Assembly: GCF_000785105.2 (NCBI RefSeq)
Contig: NZ_CP018906.1
Location: forward strand, 1,240,001 to 1,304,000
Length of the DNA stretch: 64,000 nt
Direction of reading: 5' to 3'
Source of the DNA: Lentilactobacillus curieae
GTDB taxonomy: Bacteria > Bacillota > Bacilli > Lactobacillales > Lactobacillaceae
The position numbers and the translations under genes are program-made. Positions within the stretch are counted from its first letter, which is position 1. Each line of letters starts with the position of its first letter. The notes beneath the pieces are model-generated. The model saw nothing but the letters and a program-made list of their open reading frames with translations. It was not told where the DNA came from and ran no database searches. Of this stretch, positions 44,658-53,830 are shown one piece after another.

Positions 44658-46277
44658 ATGAAGTTGAAGAGTGGTATTAAGATTGCCGGTTTAGCTCTAT
44701 TGTCTGGACTGGTACTTGCAGGGTGTGGGAAACAATCCTCATCTGAATCAAGCAAGAAAGAAATTAGCTGGATGCAGATCAACAGTTTGACAACAATGGA
44801 TCCTTCAAAGGCGACTGACCAAATTTCTGGCCAGACGCAAAATGGAACTAATGAAGGTTTGCTAAGAATGTCGACTGACAACAAGGTTATTCCGGGAGTA
44901 GCCAAGAATTACACCATCTCTAAAGATGGAAAAACTTGGACGTTTAACTTACGGAAATCTAAGTGGAACGACGGTAGTGCTGTTACAGCCCAGGACTTTG
45001 TCTATGCTTGGCGGCGAACGTTAAATCCCAAGACTGCCTCACAATACGCATACATATTTGACCATATTAAAAATGCTAACGAGGTCAACACTGGCAAAAA
45101 GCCGTTGAGTGCGTTGGGAGTTAAGGCCGAAGGTAAATATAAGCTGGTAGTTACTTTAGCTAAACCCCAAAGCTACTTCAAGTATTTGGTTGCCCAGTCT
45201 TACTTCATGCCCCAAAAGGCGAGCTACGTTAAGAAATTTGGTGCCAAGTACGGGACAACAGCTAATGATTTGGCATACAACGGTCCTTTCGTTTTGAAAG
45301 GCTGGAATGGGACCAATGATACTTGGACCTTAGTTAAGAACAAGAATTACTGGAATGCTAAGGCAGTTAAGTTGAACAAAATTAATTTCCAAACAGTTAA
45401 GGATCCTTCGACAGGATTGAATCAGTACCAAAGTGGCAAACTTGACGTGGTTACGTTAAGTGGCCAACAGGTTAAGAACTACAAGAATAATAAGGAATTT
45501 GCTTCACGGAAGGTCGCTTCGACTTGGTATCTTGAAATGAACCAACGCAAGATTCCATTCTTTAAGAATAAGAATATACGTAAGGCAATTTCATTAGCAA
45601 TTGACCGTGATCAATTGGCAAACAAGGTGCTAGCCGACGGTTCAGTTGCTGCCAAAGGGTTTGTAGCAACTGACATGTCACTTCACGATGGCAAAGATTT
45701 TGCAGACGCATCATACGTTAAGGGTGCAGTTAGTCAAAATCTCGCCCAAGCTAAGAAGTACTGGGCAAAGGGAATGAAAGAAGAGGGCAAAAAATCAGTT
45801 TCATTCACATTAATGGGTGATGATACAGACCAAGCCAAGAAGACAAATGAGTTTGTTCAAAGCCAATTGTCAAAACTGCCTGGGTTTAAGGTAACTAACC
45901 AGAACTTGCCATACAAGACGAGATTACAACGCTCTGCTGATGGTCAATTCCAGATGGTACTTTCAGGGTGGACTGGTGACTTCCCAGATCCAATTACATT
46001 CTTATCATTGATGACATCTCACAACACTTATAACAATGGTCGTTGGGGCAATAAACAATATGATAAGTTGATTGCGAATGCTGAAGGTAAAGACGCTAAC
46101 AATACTGATAAACGCTGGGACGATATGGTTCAAGCTGAAAAAATATTGGTAAATGATGAAGGGGTCGTTCCACTTTATCAACAAGTTACGCCACAGCTGG
46201 TTAAATCAAACATCAAAGGAATTCAATTCTTCCCAACAGCACCAATTTGGGACTGGAGTAAAGTAACGATCAAATAG
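44658..46277 (+). CDS. oppA: Oligopeptide ABC importer, binding lipoprotein OppA, copy 1
   Basis: 539 residues. The lipobox LAGC gives Cys23 as the lipid anchor. The SBP_bac_5 fold is plain: KDGKTWTFNLRKSKWNDGS near residue 92, TAQDFVYAWRRTLNPKTASQ, LAYNGPFVLKGWNGT and PFFKNKNIRKAISLAIDRDQ. It binds peptides outside the cell for OppBCDF. A paralogue of the same length follows at 46654. It has its own promoter, and a hairpin after the stop. GAGGGTG precedes the ATG. Confidence 0.92.
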   Translation: MKLKSGIKIAGLALLSGLVLAGCGKQSSSESSKKEISWMQINSLTTMDPSKATDQISGQTQNGTNEGLLRMSTDNKVIPGVAKNYTISKDGKTWTFNLRKSKWNDGSAVTAQDFVYAWRRTLNPKTASQYAYIFDHIKNANEVNTGKKPLSALGVKAEGKYKLVVTLAKPQSYFKYLVAQSYFMPQKASYVKKFGAKYGTTANDLAYNGPFVLKGWNGTNDTWTLVKNKNYWNAKAVKLNKINFQTVKDPSTGLNQYQSGKLDVVTLSGQQVKNYKNNKEFASRKVASTWYLEMNQRKIPFFKNKNIRKAISLAIDRDQLANKVLADGSVAAKGFVATDMSLHDGKDFADASYVKGAVSQNLAQAKKYWAKGMKEEGKKSVSFTLMGDDTDQAKKTNEFVQSQLSKLPGFKVTNQNLPYKTRLQRSADGQFQMVLSGWTGDFPDPITFLSLMTSHNTYNNGRWGNKQYDKLIANAEGKDANNTDKRWDDMVQAEKILVNDEGVVPLYQQVTPQLVKSNIKGIQFFPTAPIWDWSKVTIK

Positions 46278-46285
46278 AACAAATA

Positions 46286-46330
46286 AGGACCGGCGATATC
46301 CAAAAGATGGATATTTTGTCGGTCCTTATT
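46286..46330 (+). terminator. Hairpin terminator after the first oppA
   Basis: AAGGACCGGC and ATATCC pair with GGATAT and GTCGGTCCTT, leaving small bulges. Only a short T/A tail follows, so termination may be partial. Confidence 0.65.
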
Positions 46331-46584
46331 CATATTTATAAGGCTAAATAGTTGACAATCATTAGAAAAAATGAGAATGACTCTTGCTTGATGAAATGAA
46401 ACTATTTTGGATGATGAAATTCCACTAATAAACCTTGATATAATTTATTTTTCAGTCGGTTCAGGGCTTGAACCGGTTTCAGTAAAACGCATTAACTGTT
46501 ACTACTATGATGCGTGGTGGCGTTTATGAGTGTTTGTTAAGTAAAAATGATAATGAAAAACAAAATAAAAATGTGCCTTTAGCA
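46331..46584 (+). other. Long spacer before the second oppA
   Basis: No gene. A TATAAT at 46439-46444 lacks a good -35. Two hairpins follow: CGGTTCA/TGAACCG (46457-46474) and ACGCAT/ATGCGT (46487-46517). They could be part of a leader or a decayed element. I see no match to a known riboswitch. Confidence 0.4.
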
Positions 46585-46613
46585 TTGATTTTAATTTAAT
46601 TTTAATCTAAAAT
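46585..46613 (+). promoter_or_regulatory. Promoter of the second oppA
   Basis: TTGATT (46585-46590), 17-base spacer, TAAAAT (46608-46613). It is a near copy of the first oppA promoter, spacer included. Confidence 0.65.
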
Positions 46614-46653
46614 ATATCTATTCTGAATACAGAAAATAAGAGGGGTGCTTATT

Positions 46654-48273
46654 ATGAAATTAAGCTCAGTTGCAAAATTGGGTGGAGTTGCTGTCTTCGC
46701 TGCTTTAATCTTAGCAGGTTGTGGTAGTAATTCTTCTCAAGGTGGCAGTTCAAAGACTTTGAACTGGACCGAAAGTGCTAACTTACCAACTATGGATTTG
46801 TCAAAGGCTACTGATATTGTGTCAGGTCGGATGACAAACTCTACTGGTGAAGGTTTATTACGTTTAGCTGCCAACAACAAAGTTGTTCCTGGTGTTGCTA
46901 AGAGCTACAAGGTTTCTAAGGATGGAAAGACTTGGACTTTCAACCTTCGTAAATCAAATTGGAGTAATGGTAAGCCAGTTACTGCTAAAGACTTCGTCTA
47001 CTCATGGCAACGGACAGTTAATCCAAAGACTGCATCACAATATGCATACATATTTGGCAACATTGTGAATGCTAACAATGTCAACACTGGCAAACTACCA
47101 CTTTCTAAGTTAGGGGTAGAAGCTAAGGGAGACTACAAGCTAGTCGTTCACTTGATCAAGCCACAAAGTTTCTTCAAGTACATGGTTGCTCAAACTTACT
47201 ACTTCCCAGAAAATAAAGCCGCTGTTCAAAAGAACGGTTCTAAGTACGGTACTACAAGTAAAGCACTTGTATACAACGGACCATTCAAGATGACTAACTG
47301 GAACGGTACTAACGATTCATGGAAGTTAGTTAAGAATAACCAGTACTGGAACAAGAACAAAGTTAAGTTAGATGCGGTTAACGTTCAAGTTATCAAGGAT
47401 CCATCAACTGCCTTGAACAGTTACCAAAGCAACAAGATTGATTTCACCACCCTTAACGGTACTCAAGTTAAGCAATACAAGAATAACAAGGAATACCACG
47501 TTAACAAGGAAGCTTCAACATTCTATCTAGAAATGAACCGTAAGAAGGATCCGATCTTCAAGAATGCTAATATCCGTAAGGCCTTGTCATACGCAATCGA
47601 CCGTAAGCAAATGGCTGACAAAGTGTTAGCTGATGGTTCAACTGCTCCTAAGGGCTACGTTCCAGCAAACATGTCTAAGCACAATGGTAAGGACTTTGCT
47701 GATGCTGCATACTCAAAGAACGGTGTTTCATACAACTTAGCTCAAGCTAAGAAGTACTGGGCAAAAGGTTTGAAGGAAACTGGTAAGAAGTCAGTTACCT
47801 GGAACTTACTTTCTGATGATACAGATGGTGCTAAGAAGTCCACAGAGTTTGTTCAAAGCCAACTCGAAAAACTTCCTGGCTTGAAGATCAATAACCAAAA
47901 CTTACCATTCAAGACTCGTCTTTCACGTTCAACTGATGGTAACTTCGATTTAGTAATTACCGCTTGGATTGCTGATTACCCAGACCCAAGTAACTTCCTT
48001 GATTTGATGACTTCAACCAACTCACAAAACAATGGTAAGTTTAAGAACGCTGAATACGATAAGTTAGTCAAGGATTACGGTGGTAAGGATGCCAACAATG
48101 AAACTGCTCGTTGGAATGACATGGTGAAGGCTGAAAAGATTTTAATGGATCAAAACGCCATCATCCCACTTTATCAAACAGGTAAATCTGGTTTACTCAA
48201 GTCAAGAGTCAGTGGATTTGAATACTTCCCAACATCTCCAGAATATGGATTTGAAAATGCGTCAGTTAAGTAA
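46654..48273 (+). CDS. oppA: Oligopeptide ABC importer, binding lipoprotein OppA, copy 2
   Basis: 539 residues, a clear duplicate of the upstream oppA: lipobox LAGC (Cys23), then WTFNLRKSNWSNGKPVTAKD, LVYNGPFKMTNWNGTNDSW and NANIRKALSYAIDRKQ. Pocket-facing regions differ (for example TAWIADYPDPSNFLDL against SGWTGDFPDPITFLSL), so peptide preference may differ. The codons look more uniformly optimised than copy 1, which hints at higher expression. The ATG at 46654 lies after GAGGGG. oppB follows after a weak terminator. Confidence 0.92.
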   Translation: MKLSSVAKLGGVAVFAALILAGCGSNSSQGGSSKTLNWTESANLPTMDLSKATDIVSGRMTNSTGEGLLRLAANNKVVPGVAKSYKVSKDGKTWTFNLRKSNWSNGKPVTAKDFVYSWQRTVNPKTASQYAYIFGNIVNANNVNTGKLPLSKLGVEAKGDYKLVVHLIKPQSFFKYMVAQTYYFPENKAAVQKNGSKYGTTSKALVYNGPFKMTNWNGTNDSWKLVKNNQYWNKNKVKLDAVNVQVIKDPSTALNSYQSNKIDFTTLNGTQVKQYKNNKEYHVNKEASTFYLEMNRKKDPIFKNANIRKALSYAIDRKQMADKVLADGSTAPKGYVPANMSKHNGKDFADAAYSKNGVSYNLAQAKKYWAKGLKETGKKSVTWNLLSDDTDGAKKSTEFVQSQLEKLPGLKINNQNLPFKTRLSRSTDGNFDLVITAWIADYPDPSNFLDLMTSTNSQNNGKFKNAEYDKLVKDYGGKDANNETARWNDMVKAEKILMDQNAIIPLYQTGKSGLLKSRVSGFEYFPTSPEYGFENASVK

Positions 48274-51438: not shown

Positions 51439-52400
51439 TGGATTATTCAAAAGCCAGAAAAATACTGGAAGTTAGCCATTTGAAGCAATACTTCAATATT
51501 GGCAAACCAAATGAAGTTCATGCGGTTGATGACATCAGTTTTGACGTGTATGAAGGTGAAACCTTTGGGTTAGTTGGTGAATCAGGATCAGGTAAGACGA
51601 CTACTGGTCGGGCTATCATCCATTTGTACGAACCAACTGAAGGTGAAATTACGTTTGATGGTCAAGATGTGTCTAAGTTAAATACGAAGGAAAAGCGTCA
51701 GCACTTCCGCCGTGAAATGCAGATGATTTTCCAAGATCCATACGCTTCATTGAACCCAAGAATGAAGGTTAAGGATATCGTTGCTGAAGGAATTGATATC
51801 AACCACCTTGCTACTAGTAAGGAAGACCGTTCAAAACAAGTTGAAGACTTATTGGAAACTGTTGGGTTGAACAAAGACCATTCAAGCCGTTACCCACATG
51901 AATTTTCAGGTGGTCAACGTCAACGTATCGGGATTGCCCGTGCATTGGCTGTGCAACCACAATTTATTATCGCTGATGAACCAATTTCAGCACTTGATGT
52001 TTCGATTCAAGCCCAGGTCGTTAACTTGCTCAAAAAGTTGCAACGGGAAAAGAATTTGACATACTTATTCATTGCCCATGATTTATCAATGGTTAAGTAC
52101 ATCAGTGACCGAATTGGGGTTATGCATTATGGAAGAATGCTAGAAATTGCGTCATCTGACGAAATTTATGCTCACCCATTGCATGACTACACTGCCAGCC
52201 TACTATCAGCTGTGCCTGTCCCAGATCCTGATTACGAGCGTACTCGGGTTCAAAAGGACTATGATGCCAGCCAAGAGTTTGATGGTAAGGAAAGAAAACT
52301 TGTAGAAATCGTGCCACATCATTGGGTACGAGCAAGTGAAGATGAAATTCCTATGTACAAGGAACGGGCAATGGCCGCTCCGAAGACTAACAACAATTAA
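51438..52400 (+). CDS. oppF: Oligopeptide ABC importer, ATPase OppF
   Basis: A 320-residue ABC ATPase. Walker A GESGSGKTT is near residue 46, the signature FSGGQRQRIGIARAL near 154, and Walker B IIADEPISALDVS near 175. The C-terminal HPLHDYTASLLSAVPVPDPD is typical of OppF. It partners OppD. The start overlaps the oppD stop (TAATG), with AGGAGGAAC upstream. Last gene of the operon, with a strong terminator four bases on. Confidence 0.93.
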   Translation: MDYSKARKILEVSHLKQYFNIGKPNEVHAVDDISFDVYEGETFGLVGESGSGKTTTGRAIIHLYEPTEGEITFDGQDVSKLNTKEKRQHFRREMQMIFQDPYASLNPRMKVKDIVAEGIDINHLATSKEDRSKQVEDLLETVGLNKDHSSRYPHEFSGGQRQRIGIARALAVQPQFIIADEPISALDVSIQAQVVNLLKKLQREKNLTYLFIAHDLSMVKYISDRIGVMHYGRMLEIASSDEIYAHPLHDYTASLLSAVPVPDPDYERTRVQKDYDASQEFDGKERKLVEIVPHHWVRASEDEIPMYKERAMAAPKTNNN

Positions 52401-52403
52401 GAG

Positions 52404-52437
52404 AAAGCCGCGAATGAAAGTTCGCGGCTTTTTTTGT
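52404..52437 (+). terminator. Terminator of the opp operon
   Basis: AAGCCGCGAA pairs with TTCGCGGCTT around TGAAAG, followed by T7. Confidence 0.93.
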
Positions 52438-52460
52438 GTGCAATATTTATGAGGTTAGGG

Positions 52461-52614
52461 TTCAATTCACCTTTTTTGCACTCCCAATGGAACGTGGTGC
52501 GCACGACTTCGAACCTTTTAAAAACCAAAAAGTTTCAAAGATCGACGTTGTCGTAAGTCATACTGACTAACGACAATTTCACCACTGATTGGGGTGCATT
52601 TAGGGTGAATTGAA
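52461..52614 (+). repeat. Dispersed structured repeat, copy 2
   Basis: 154 bases, very similar to 27296-27448 in the same orientation. The termini TTCAATTCACC and GGTGAATTGAA are perfectly inverted here. The second stem changes to TGCAC-T-CCCAAT with ATTGGG-GTGCA, so pairing is kept while sequence differs from copy 1. The hairpin TTGTCGTAAGTCA...TGACTAACGACAA is shared. Its GTGCGCACGACTTCG resembles the GCGCACTTCG loop of the tandem array that follows. Confidence 0.75.
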
Positions 52615-52630
52615 GGGCAACAAATTGTGT

Positions 52631-52665
52631 AAAAAAAGGACCACAAGATTATTCTTGTGATCCTT
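52631..52665 (-). terminator. Minus-strand terminator at the far end of the tandem array
   Basis: On the minus strand AAGGATCACAAGA pairs with TCTTGTGGTCCTT (12 of 13 as Watson-Crick, the other a G-U), followed by T7. The plus strand has no T run. So a transcript from the minus strand, through the whole array, would end here. Confidence 0.78.
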
Positions 52666-52684
52666 GATTGTTGTTGATAATGTG

Positions 52685-53179
52685 GGCACTGTATGCAGAA
52701 CGACCTCCAACCTCAGACTTTTCTCTTAGCTACAAATTTGGCCTTGCGCACTTCGTTTGCTCAATTCAAAATTTTAAGCTAATGCTCAAAGTCTCCCGAG
52801 GTTGTCGGCACTCTACACAGAACGGCCTCCCTAAGCAATCATCTCCGCCTAATAAAAAAGTGAGACCGCGCACTTCGTTTGCTCGCTCCCACTTTTTAAA
52901 TTAGTGCTCAATGATTCCCGCTTGCAGTCGGCACTCTACCTAGAACGGATTCACCCAGCAGTTCACTCGCCTAAGTACAAATTTTTGTCCGCGCACTTCG
53001 TTTGCTCACCCAAAAATTTGCAACTTAGTGCTCGTGAACTACCGCTGGGTTCAGCACTCTTCGTAAATCGGCTTCGCTAAACATTCATCTCCCTTAACGT
53101 TAAATCTCAACCGCGCACTACGTTTACTCGCTTTCGATTTTTCCGTTAATGGTCGATGAATCCCGTTTAGCTCAGCACT
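52685..53179. repeat. Tandem array of four ~122-bp units with covarying stems
   Basis: Units begin at 52685, 52807, 52930 and 53053, with a partial fifth at 53174. Each has a spacer (GGCACTCTACACAGAACGG type), an outer stem in two parts split by a 3-base CCC/ACC bulge on the 3' side, an inner stem, and the loop CGCGCACTTCGTTTGCTC. Outer stems: CAACCTC-AGACTTT/AAAGTCT-CCC-GAGGTTG; AAGC-AATCAT/ATGATT-CCC-GCTT; ACCCAGC-AGTTCAC/GTGAACT-ACC-GCTGGGT; GCTAAAC-ATTCATC/GATGAAT-CCC-GTTTAGC. Stem sequences are unrelated, yet all pair. No coding frame is convincing. The class is unknown to me. Confidence 0.88.
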
Positions 53180-53185
53180 CTTTCC

Positions 53186-53830
53186 CTAATCCACCTTATT
53201 AAAATATTCCACCTGATAGTTTTTACCATCCCAGTTCACCTTGGTCACACTACCATTCTTCGTTGACACATCAACCGGAATGTCGCTCCAATGGCTCACT
53301 AGGTTTCTAATCAATGTTCCGTGGGTTGCCACCAAAATCTGGTCGCCATCCTTCGCGTTGGCAATCATCTTTTCAACGCCAGGAACAAATCTCTTCCAGA
53401 AATCCTTACCTGACTCAGCGTCACCGTATGGATCGGCAGCAGCAATCTTATCCTCTGCAGCTTCAATTCCATAACGACCAATCATTTCGTGAAATGAATT
53501 GTCCCCTGTTGGACCACCAATTGTATGCCAAGTCTTAACGTCATCTTCACCTTCGAAGTAACCGAAGTTAAGTTCACGCAGCTCTTCTAATTCAGTTGGT
53601 ACATCGATAGCAACTGGATTTTCAGCCAGCATTAACTTAGCAGTTTGAACAGCACGACGAGCGTCACTTGAGTAAGCAGCGGCAAACTTAATGTCGCTAA
53701 GACGCTTTCCGGCGTCTTTGGCATCGTTGATTCCCTTTTCTGTGAGGGGAGAGTCAGCGTAACCTTGAATTCTGTGGTATTTGTTTAAAAATGTTTGTCC
53801 ATGGCGAACAAAGTACAGTGAGATTGTCAT
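53186..53830 (-). CDS. Histidine phosphatase family protein (phosphoglycerate-mutase-like)
   Basis: 214 residues. The catalytic motif YFVRHGQTFLNKYHRIQGYADSPLTE (in part) puts the phospho-histidine at about residue 10; the second His is in VATHGTLIRNL. It resembles broad-specificity phosphatases rather than glycolytic mutase. GGAGG lies before the ATG. No stem lies right after the stop, so the transcript may run through the tandem array to the terminator at 52631-52665. Confidence 0.9.
   Translation of the reverse strand: MTISLYFVRHGQTFLNKYHRIQGYADSPLTEKGINDAKDAGKRLSDIKFAAAYSSDARRAVQTAKLMLAENPVAIDVPTELEELRELNFGYFEGEDDVKTWHTIGGPTGDNSFHEMIGRYGIEAAEDKIAAADPYGDAESGKDFWKRFVPGVEKMIANAKDGDQILVATHGTLIRNLVSHWSDIPVDVSTKNGSVTKVNWDGKNYQVEYFNKVD

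Follow-up and report, generated by a model that had tools for sequence, protein, structure and literature searches.

The window, i.e. the whole stretch of DNA analysed here, is 64,000 nucleotides long and carries four direct repeats at positions 52696–53182. The repeat units are 119–121 nt each with a period of 121–123 bp, and are situated behind a histidine phosphatase gene, here termed gpm. The features, listed in the direction in which gpm is read, are as follows.

53186..53830, minus strand: histidine phosphatase gene gpm (Pfam His_Phos_1), upstream of the array
53064..53182, minus strand: unit U4, the first of the array, starting 3 nt past the gpm stop codon (covariance model score 108 bits)
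52941..53061, minus strand: unit U3 (128 bits), of a subtype also present in the same genome at L002/L009, L004/L015 and L014
52818..52938, minus strand: unit U2 (113.5 bits)
52696..52815, minus strand: unit U1 (128 bits), of a subtype also present in the same genome at L001 and L003
52682..52692, minus strand: remnant of a further unit, consisting of its 5′ end (ACAGTGCCCAC), adjoining U1 and read directly in the sequence
52631..52663, minus strand: intrinsic terminator of gpm, a hairpin followed by seven T, downstream of the array and read in the sequence
52407..52435, plus strand: intrinsic terminator of the convergent transport operon, outside the element and forming the end of the neighbouring transcript

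If transcription reaches the terminator at 52631–52663, the array is the 3′ UTR of gpm. A position between the preceding gene and a terminator is found for the units in all inspected cases (the window, L001, L002, L004 and L250), and the last units are also truncated in L001, L002 and L004.

An inverted repeat is present at 52461–52614, between the transport-operon terminator and the array. Its 24-nt arms are 79% complementary and lie 106 nt apart. Strings that resemble it (GTGAAATTRTCGTTAG) are found downstream of gpm in the relative G009 (L198), so the inverted repeat is possibly another structured element with dispersed copies. Window positions 44658–48273, ahead of the transport operon, hold two similar tandem genes, which presumably encode solute-binding-type proteins.

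Fold of the units and selection on pairing

The first-pass annotation described the four units as hairpins with a bulge and a conserved loop. This is what is found: each unit folds as one long hairpin consisting of an outer stem, a 3-nt bulge, a second stem, an inner stem and the conserved loop, and the stems quoted there (GCTAAAC/GTTTAGC and ACCCAGC/GCTGGGT) and the loop are correct. The fold of that reading stands but not its strand; the functional strand is the minus strand, and AGAG/TTCT together with GCT/AGC forms an extra outer pairing of the hairpin. On the minus strand a unit begins with AGAGTGCYGA, followed by a 7-bp stem, a GGG/GGT bulge, a second stem of 6–7 bp, the inner stem and the loop GAGCAAACGAAGTGCGC, which in U4 reads GAGTAAACGTAGTGCGC. 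The 3′ end of the unit is GAAGCCGTTCTA or a variant. Sequence conservation is mainly at the unit start, the bulge, the inner loops (conserved motifs GAGCAUUA ... UAAGCGGA) and the end, and the stems vary freely yet stay complementary. A kink-turn in the GAGCA/GCGGA loop was weighed from the sequence and dropped. Unit length in the family is approximately 113–130 nt, with 117–129 nt among 84 aligned units.

The four units show minus-strand fold energies of −37.5, −40.9, −49.8 and −40.2 kcal/mol, compared with −29.7, −30.0, −40.6 and −26.7 kcal/mol for the plus strand, the minus strand being lower in all four. The corresponding z-scores are −3.1, −3.0, −5.6 and −4.7 (minus) and −2.7, −3.2, −5.5 and −3.2 (plus), with the minus strand better in three of four.

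For the alignment, units more than 90% alike and eleven truncated or chimeric units were dropped, and the remaining 101 were reduced by hand to 84. The alignment of these 84 units has 91.2% of its 2903 pair cells paired (56.9% when shuffled), and the covariation score is 0.870 versus 0.229 shuffled and 0.118–0.222 with slid structures. Changes on both sides are seen in 34 of 35 pairs, which is a weak measure since shuffles average 31.3. The proposed covariation is thus borne out in homologues. That the four units alone, on which the proposal was founded, display it at this locus is not supported; they are ready-made subtypes, two of which have close full copies elsewhere.

The strand test was a palindromic alignment of each unit to itself under equal scores for all mismatches, with isolated mismatches counted. 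The 129 non-redundant units give 230 G-T against 27 A-C mismatches; by unit, G-T is in excess in 104 and A-C in 4, with 21 ties. A hold-out set of 41 units from 40 named loci outside model building gives 73 G-T versus 15 A-C. Units more than 90% alike were dropped in both tests. Under selection on double-stranded DNA only, G-T and A-C would be expected in equal numbers; folding of the sense strand is therefore selected. The bias fits RNA and single-stranded DNA alike, as both tolerate G-T/G-U. A transcription-linked mutation bias could contribute, although a ratio of eight to one would be unlikely to come from it alone.

Six comparisons of corresponding units show 31 differences, of which 12 are in stems of the two-sequence fold. 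All 12 still pair in that fold, which is derived from the same sequences, and one pair is retained through a double change. In unit D, a single change breaks a C-G pair of the single-sequence fold. These comparisons weakly suggest selection on pairing after insertion.

Distribution of the family and placement at gene ends

A covariance model search of related genomes, as first suggested for this element, finds a large family. Model R1 was built from 8 units and a broader model, R2, from 84. R1 has matches in 19 of 60 genomes, including that of the window, and in 5 of 31 genera. The genome of the window (G000) contains 16 units with R1 and 15 with R2. With R2 there are at least 147 copies each in G013 and G026, 52 in G002, 24 in G014, 19 in G006, 17 in G009 and 5 in G001, and none in G017, G020 and G023 (G023 being 83% complete); at most 150 candidates were scored per genome, so these counts are lower bounds. 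Counts also depend on the model, e.g. R1 misses all 52 units of G002 and all of the at least 147 in G013 that R2 detects.

A degenerate pattern of the unit is found in at least 120 stretches of named genomes, and all those listed are titled lactobacilli or Pediococcus. The genera among the matches listed are Levilactobacillus, Lactiplantibacillus, Lapidilactobacillus, Lentilactobacillus, Companilactobacillus, Paucilactobacillus, Loigolactobacillus, Pediococcus and 'Lactobacillus sp.'. The family placement of Lapidilactobacillus was confirmed by look-up and the remaining genera we take to be Lactobacillaceae. At the level of the class, at least 8 of 299 genomes have a match at E ≤ 1e-4 with 12 candidates scored per genome; these are the genome of the window, two from the same order but other families, and five from elsewhere in the class. 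Examples fetched from outside Lactobacillaceae show the same fold, and tandem arrays too, with scores of at most 57 bits.

Rfam 15 has no match in the window at the gathering cut-off, and a permissive search of 52400–53300 showed nothing near a cut-off. In 20 loci with family members the only Rfam matches are tmRNA and T-box, both away from the units. The array has no match in plasmids or phages, and the units of L184 and L186 have none in plasmids. The L109 unit matches three Pediococcus damnosus plasmids (74.5% over 76% of the query) and no phage, and the degenerate pattern is absent from viral contigs. No published description of the repeat was recognised in the open-access literature searched. 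The initial assignment to no recognised family thus agrees with the stretches scanned, and the repeat family seems to be uncatalogued.

The exact loop of the array is found at four further places of its own genome; U1-like units are those of L001 and L003 and U3-like units those of L002, L004 and L014. A unit at the gpm stop codon was found in none of the 23 same-genus gpm loci searched. As two of the subtypes recur elsewhere and the gpm stop is empty in these 23 relatives, the array was not made at the gpm locus, and the notion that its pairing was shaped there does not hold. In the two most similar gpm loci (G023, 90%; G017, 88%) a terminator follows directly after the stop. The gpm product ends in FNKVD* here, in FNNVSDEI* and FNNVSTDI* in G023 and G017, and FNNVSADV* is also seen among relatives. 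Compared with G023 and G017, the C-terminus is altered exactly where the array begins.

In three relatives, arrays begin 18–20 nt away from the start codon of gpm and read away from the gene:

L211, 843–1460 (G010), strand opposite to gpm: array of 5 units
L212, 2160–2407 (G003), strand opposite to gpm: array of 2 units
L213, 1236–1481 (G016), strand opposite to gpm: array of 2 units

The region beside gpm is reused in these genomes, though away from the stop codon.

Other genes followed by units in the genome of the window are araD-, gabD- and trxB-like (Pfam Aldolase_II, Aldedh and Pyr_redox_2). Their orthologues found in G017, G023 and G009 (no araD locus in G023) have no units at these stops, and stop at the same codon as here. 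At three other genes G017 and G023 are empty and the more distant G009 is occupied. In G009 a cyclopropane-synthase-like gene is followed by two units of another subtype, the L018 orthologue by a unit, and an aldo-keto reductase gene by a unit-like start. G017 and G023 may therefore have lost units at these three stops, and some empty sites may be losses and not sites that were never occupied. The same stop codon can thus be found with different subtypes in different species (own genome versus G009). The genes upstream of units belong to unrelated families. Several genes with a product ending in ...GWY have units behind the stop codon (L021, L022, L275 and L281); we take these products to be secreted cell-wall proteins.

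For counts of placement, non-first units and units within 400 bases of the locus end were dropped. Fifty-one of 109 first units have their start in the range −6 to +8 nt relative to a co-directional stop codon that closes an open frame of 100 codons or more, compared with 0 of 109 for opposite-strand stops and 5 of 268 random positions. Hold-out loci give 13 of 40 versus 1 of 43 opposite, and loci of relatives, some of which overlap the first set, 14 of 21 versus 1 of 22. Outside Lactobacillaceae, 7 of 22 first units are at a stop. The first bases of the unit itself overlap the stop codon in 25 of these 51 cases. Stop codons at units consist of 4 TGA, 35 TAG and 41 TAA (total 80), with a background of 88, 176 and 383 (total 647); TGA is depleted (p = 0.03) and TAG enriched over TAA (p = 0.014), both values being uncorrected. 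The other 58 of 109 first units are away from the stop of such a frame; several are directly behind the T-run of a terminator, one is behind a tRNA, and others are upstream of a divergent gene.

The element had been left as RNA or single-stranded DNA, and its sense orientation behind stop codons favours action as RNA. The first long stem starts about 11 nt into the unit. A ribosome positioned on the stop codon has the edge of its footprint near the start of this stem, thus an effect on termination or decay is testable.

Turnover of arrays and search for a mover

G006 and G014 are close relatives, with flanks of the compared loci approximately 79–94% identical. Judged by eye, the stop codon shared by L279 and L287 is followed by a single unit in one and about five, some truncated or fused, in the other; that of L274 and L283 by two units versus several more. 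L273 and L282 have two outer units in common and differ in the inner ones (also by eye). The shared outer units differ by 0 and 1 bases, much of the flank is 80–90% identical, and parts of the upstream gene are above 95% identical. The near-identity of these outer units may reflect constraint or a recent exchange. The spacers separating units vary and are mostly 1–4 nt long, which disfavours simple unequal crossing-over. In many arrays the outer units are truncated and merge into the terminator, which suggests that new units are added beside the stop codon.

Chimeric units are present at L004 1452–1568 and L014 1382–1497, with arms of different subtypes and pairing broken or patched, as if they arose by recombination between units. 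One L004 unit consists of a U1-type arm and a U4-type arm and folds poorly. Composite units are also seen, where a further module of approximately 95 nt (GGAGAGAGAAACTAAATTTCT...GAAACTCAGCC) is situated within the 5′ arm of several units in G006 and G014 (L275, L276, L283, L286 and L289).

A search of the G000 genome for a partner with the exact ends AGAGTGCYGA and GAAGCCGTTYT showed only units, remnants and unrelated places. An IS-derived MITE defined by shared terminal inverted repeats was set aside, the exact ends matching no resident IS in this genome. The IS200-type (Y1) transposase PF01797 was not found in G000 or in 8 of 10 other genomes; its presence in 2 of 11 genomes does not track copy number. 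REP/REPIN elements with a RAYT were rejected on the absence of PF01797 from this genome and on size, the unit being approximately 113–130 nt versus 20–40 bp. Reverse transcriptases, present in 4 of 11 genomes, do not track copy number either, and PF00078 was not found in the unit-carrying genomes G000, G009, G013, G014 and G026; a derivative of a retroelement or group II intron was rejected on the latter result. Integron-type cassettes are unlikely, as there are no genes between units. The first bases of 223 unit starts are TA in 81, AA in 66, CA in 40 and GA in 27. A TA target as in IS630-type MITEs would fit the depletion of TGA and enrichment of TAG, and no clean target duplication is readable in the sequences.

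Interpretation and relation to known repeats

The array behind gpm probably represents four copies of mobile, non-autonomous, BOX-like repeats of approximately 120 nt, whose transcripts would fold as 3′-UTR hairpins. Both the occurrence of the same subtypes at several loci and the differences in number and type of units between close relatives argue for this. The first-pass annotation had set transposon remnants against a structured element; the units are indeed exchangeable repeats, but their pairing is maintained. The part that concerns a mover is weakened by the absence of a partner with the exact ends and by transposases and reverse transcriptases that do not track the copies. Also counting against the reading are the 58 first units away from stops, the arrays beside the gpm start codon, and the chance that some empty sites are losses. 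We envisage that a trans-acting transposase or recombinase inserts units at or beside a stop codon and that the unit's own TAG or TAA often becomes the stop of the gene. Later units would land upstream of older ones, which would decay and fuse with the terminator. The transcript would fold as a rigid hairpin, and the insertion would be tolerated or be useful as a structure at the mRNA 3′ end, possibly for protection from 3′ exonucleases or as an RNase III entry site.

A real but minor possibility is a purely selfish repeat, with the hairpin as a single-stranded DNA substrate of transposition or recombination (cf. REP/RAYT, attC) and 3′ UTRs as the least harmful places. Turnover of arrays is in keeping with this, as are the units away from stops, among them the arrays ahead of the gpm start codon of G003, G010 and G016, and folding of single-stranded DNA would also give G-T over A-C. 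However, sense orientation and a start exactly at the stop in about half of the first units are unexpected for an element that acts as DNA only, and the IS200-type transposase is absent in 9 of 11 genomes, including G000 and G013 with its at least 147 copies.

It is more doubtful that insertion is aimed at stop codons, each capture adding a sense hairpin cassette and pushing older ones outward to form polarised arrays. Insertion would then be linked to the end of the mRNA or to termination of translation, or selection at the terminating ribosome would retain mainly docked units. This reading is weakened by G003, G010 and G016, whose arrays beside gpm lie upstream of the start codon.

That the units are transcription terminators appears improbable. 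They are long hairpins behind genes, and the EFAR repeats of Enterococcus faecalis reportedly terminate transcription. However the longest T-run at the 3′ end does not exceed 3 in 157 of 188 units and is 4 in 26 and 5 in the remaining 5, and a canonical terminator follows the array at gpm, L001, L002 and L004. A fixed, vertically inherited host cis-regulatory RNA, i.e. a riboswitch or a protein-binding 3′ UTR element, is highly improbable. Conserved internal-loop motifs, covariation and the three genes with units at the same stop here and in G009 would be in its favour, but the gpm stop is without a unit in all 23 same-genus relatives, unit types differ at shared stops, arrays differ between close relatives and the upstream genes are from unrelated families. 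Neutral decaying repeats or coding remnants that pair by chance, suggested by the tandem arrangement and by a spurious 78-aa reading frame that spans two units, are practically negligible in view of the fold z-scores, the covariation and the G-T bias.

The preferred reading, mobile hairpin repeats, may be compared with known systems. Integron attC arrays consist of long imperfect hairpins behind stop codons, in arrays of differing units. The likeness to the units described here is in both of these properties but, unlike attC, there are no cassette genes between units.

Nearest in kind is BOX, described as small, highly structured interspersed repeats of the low-GC Gram-positive Streptococcus pneumoniae, enriched between convergent genes and occurring in clusters; 36 BOX repeats supply the stop codon of a gene, and BOX is reported from S. 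pneumoniae, S. mitis and S. suis and rarely from other streptococci (PMC3049150). Structure, supply of a stop codon and clustering are shared. However BOX has a modular boxA-boxB-boxC plan, whereas units here are a single hairpin module of approximately 113–130 nt, widespread in Lactobacillaceae; an iterated internal block is absent in the 84 aligned units as judged from the alignment, and the boxA-boxB-boxC plan is not found.

Efa-1 of Enterococcus faecalis is given as 163 bp, with a predicted pair of adjacent stem-loops and 65 copies listed (PMC2267715). Efa-1 and EFAR would appear to be the same repeat. It resembles the present family as an intergenic structured repeat of a lactic acid bacterium, but its architecture differs by the published description, a 163-bp double stem-loop versus one hairpin of about 120 nt.

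The interspersed repeats bcr1–bcr18 of the Bacillus cereus group, bcr1–bcr3 of which are called MITE-like, have copies in mRNAs, also as 3′ UTR (84 of 165 and 62 of 155, the 18 families together), and bcr3 correlates with mRNA decay rate, according to the accessible sections (PMC3446304). bcr1 is titled B. cereus group-specific, and docking at stop codons or arrays of subtypes were not met for bcr in these sections. In GTAG-REP the terminal TAG is often the stop codon of the neighbouring ORF (PMC3733652). GTAG-REP/REPIN are similar as palindromic repeats that supply a stop codon, but REPs are 20–40 bp, carry a GTAG or CGTC tag and are accompanied by a RAYT (Y1), whereas the genome of the window is without a Y1 transposase. 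Low-GC Firmicutes are described as having many stable stem-loops near stop codons, mostly terminator-like (PMC1590033). The family may be distinct from BOX, EFAR, bcr and GTAG-REP, BOX and EFAR differing in their described architecture. It appears BOX-like in kind, by analogy, and is apparently an undescribed family of exchangeable hairpin repeats.

A genome of 2.5–2.9 Mb can contain more than a hundred copies, and the family is found across lactobacilli with relatives in other Bacilli. If docking at stop codons is real, the copies would be a natural experiment on the effects of 3′-UTR hairpins on mRNA stability and translation termination, and a route by which to look for a new mode of target choice in a mobile element. 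Should insertion be aimed at stop codons, these repeats would constitute exchangeable 3′-UTR parts, a class that extends throughout the Bacilli. The family is also a warning that the ends of genes in lactobacilli are being rebuilt by exchangeable hairpins.
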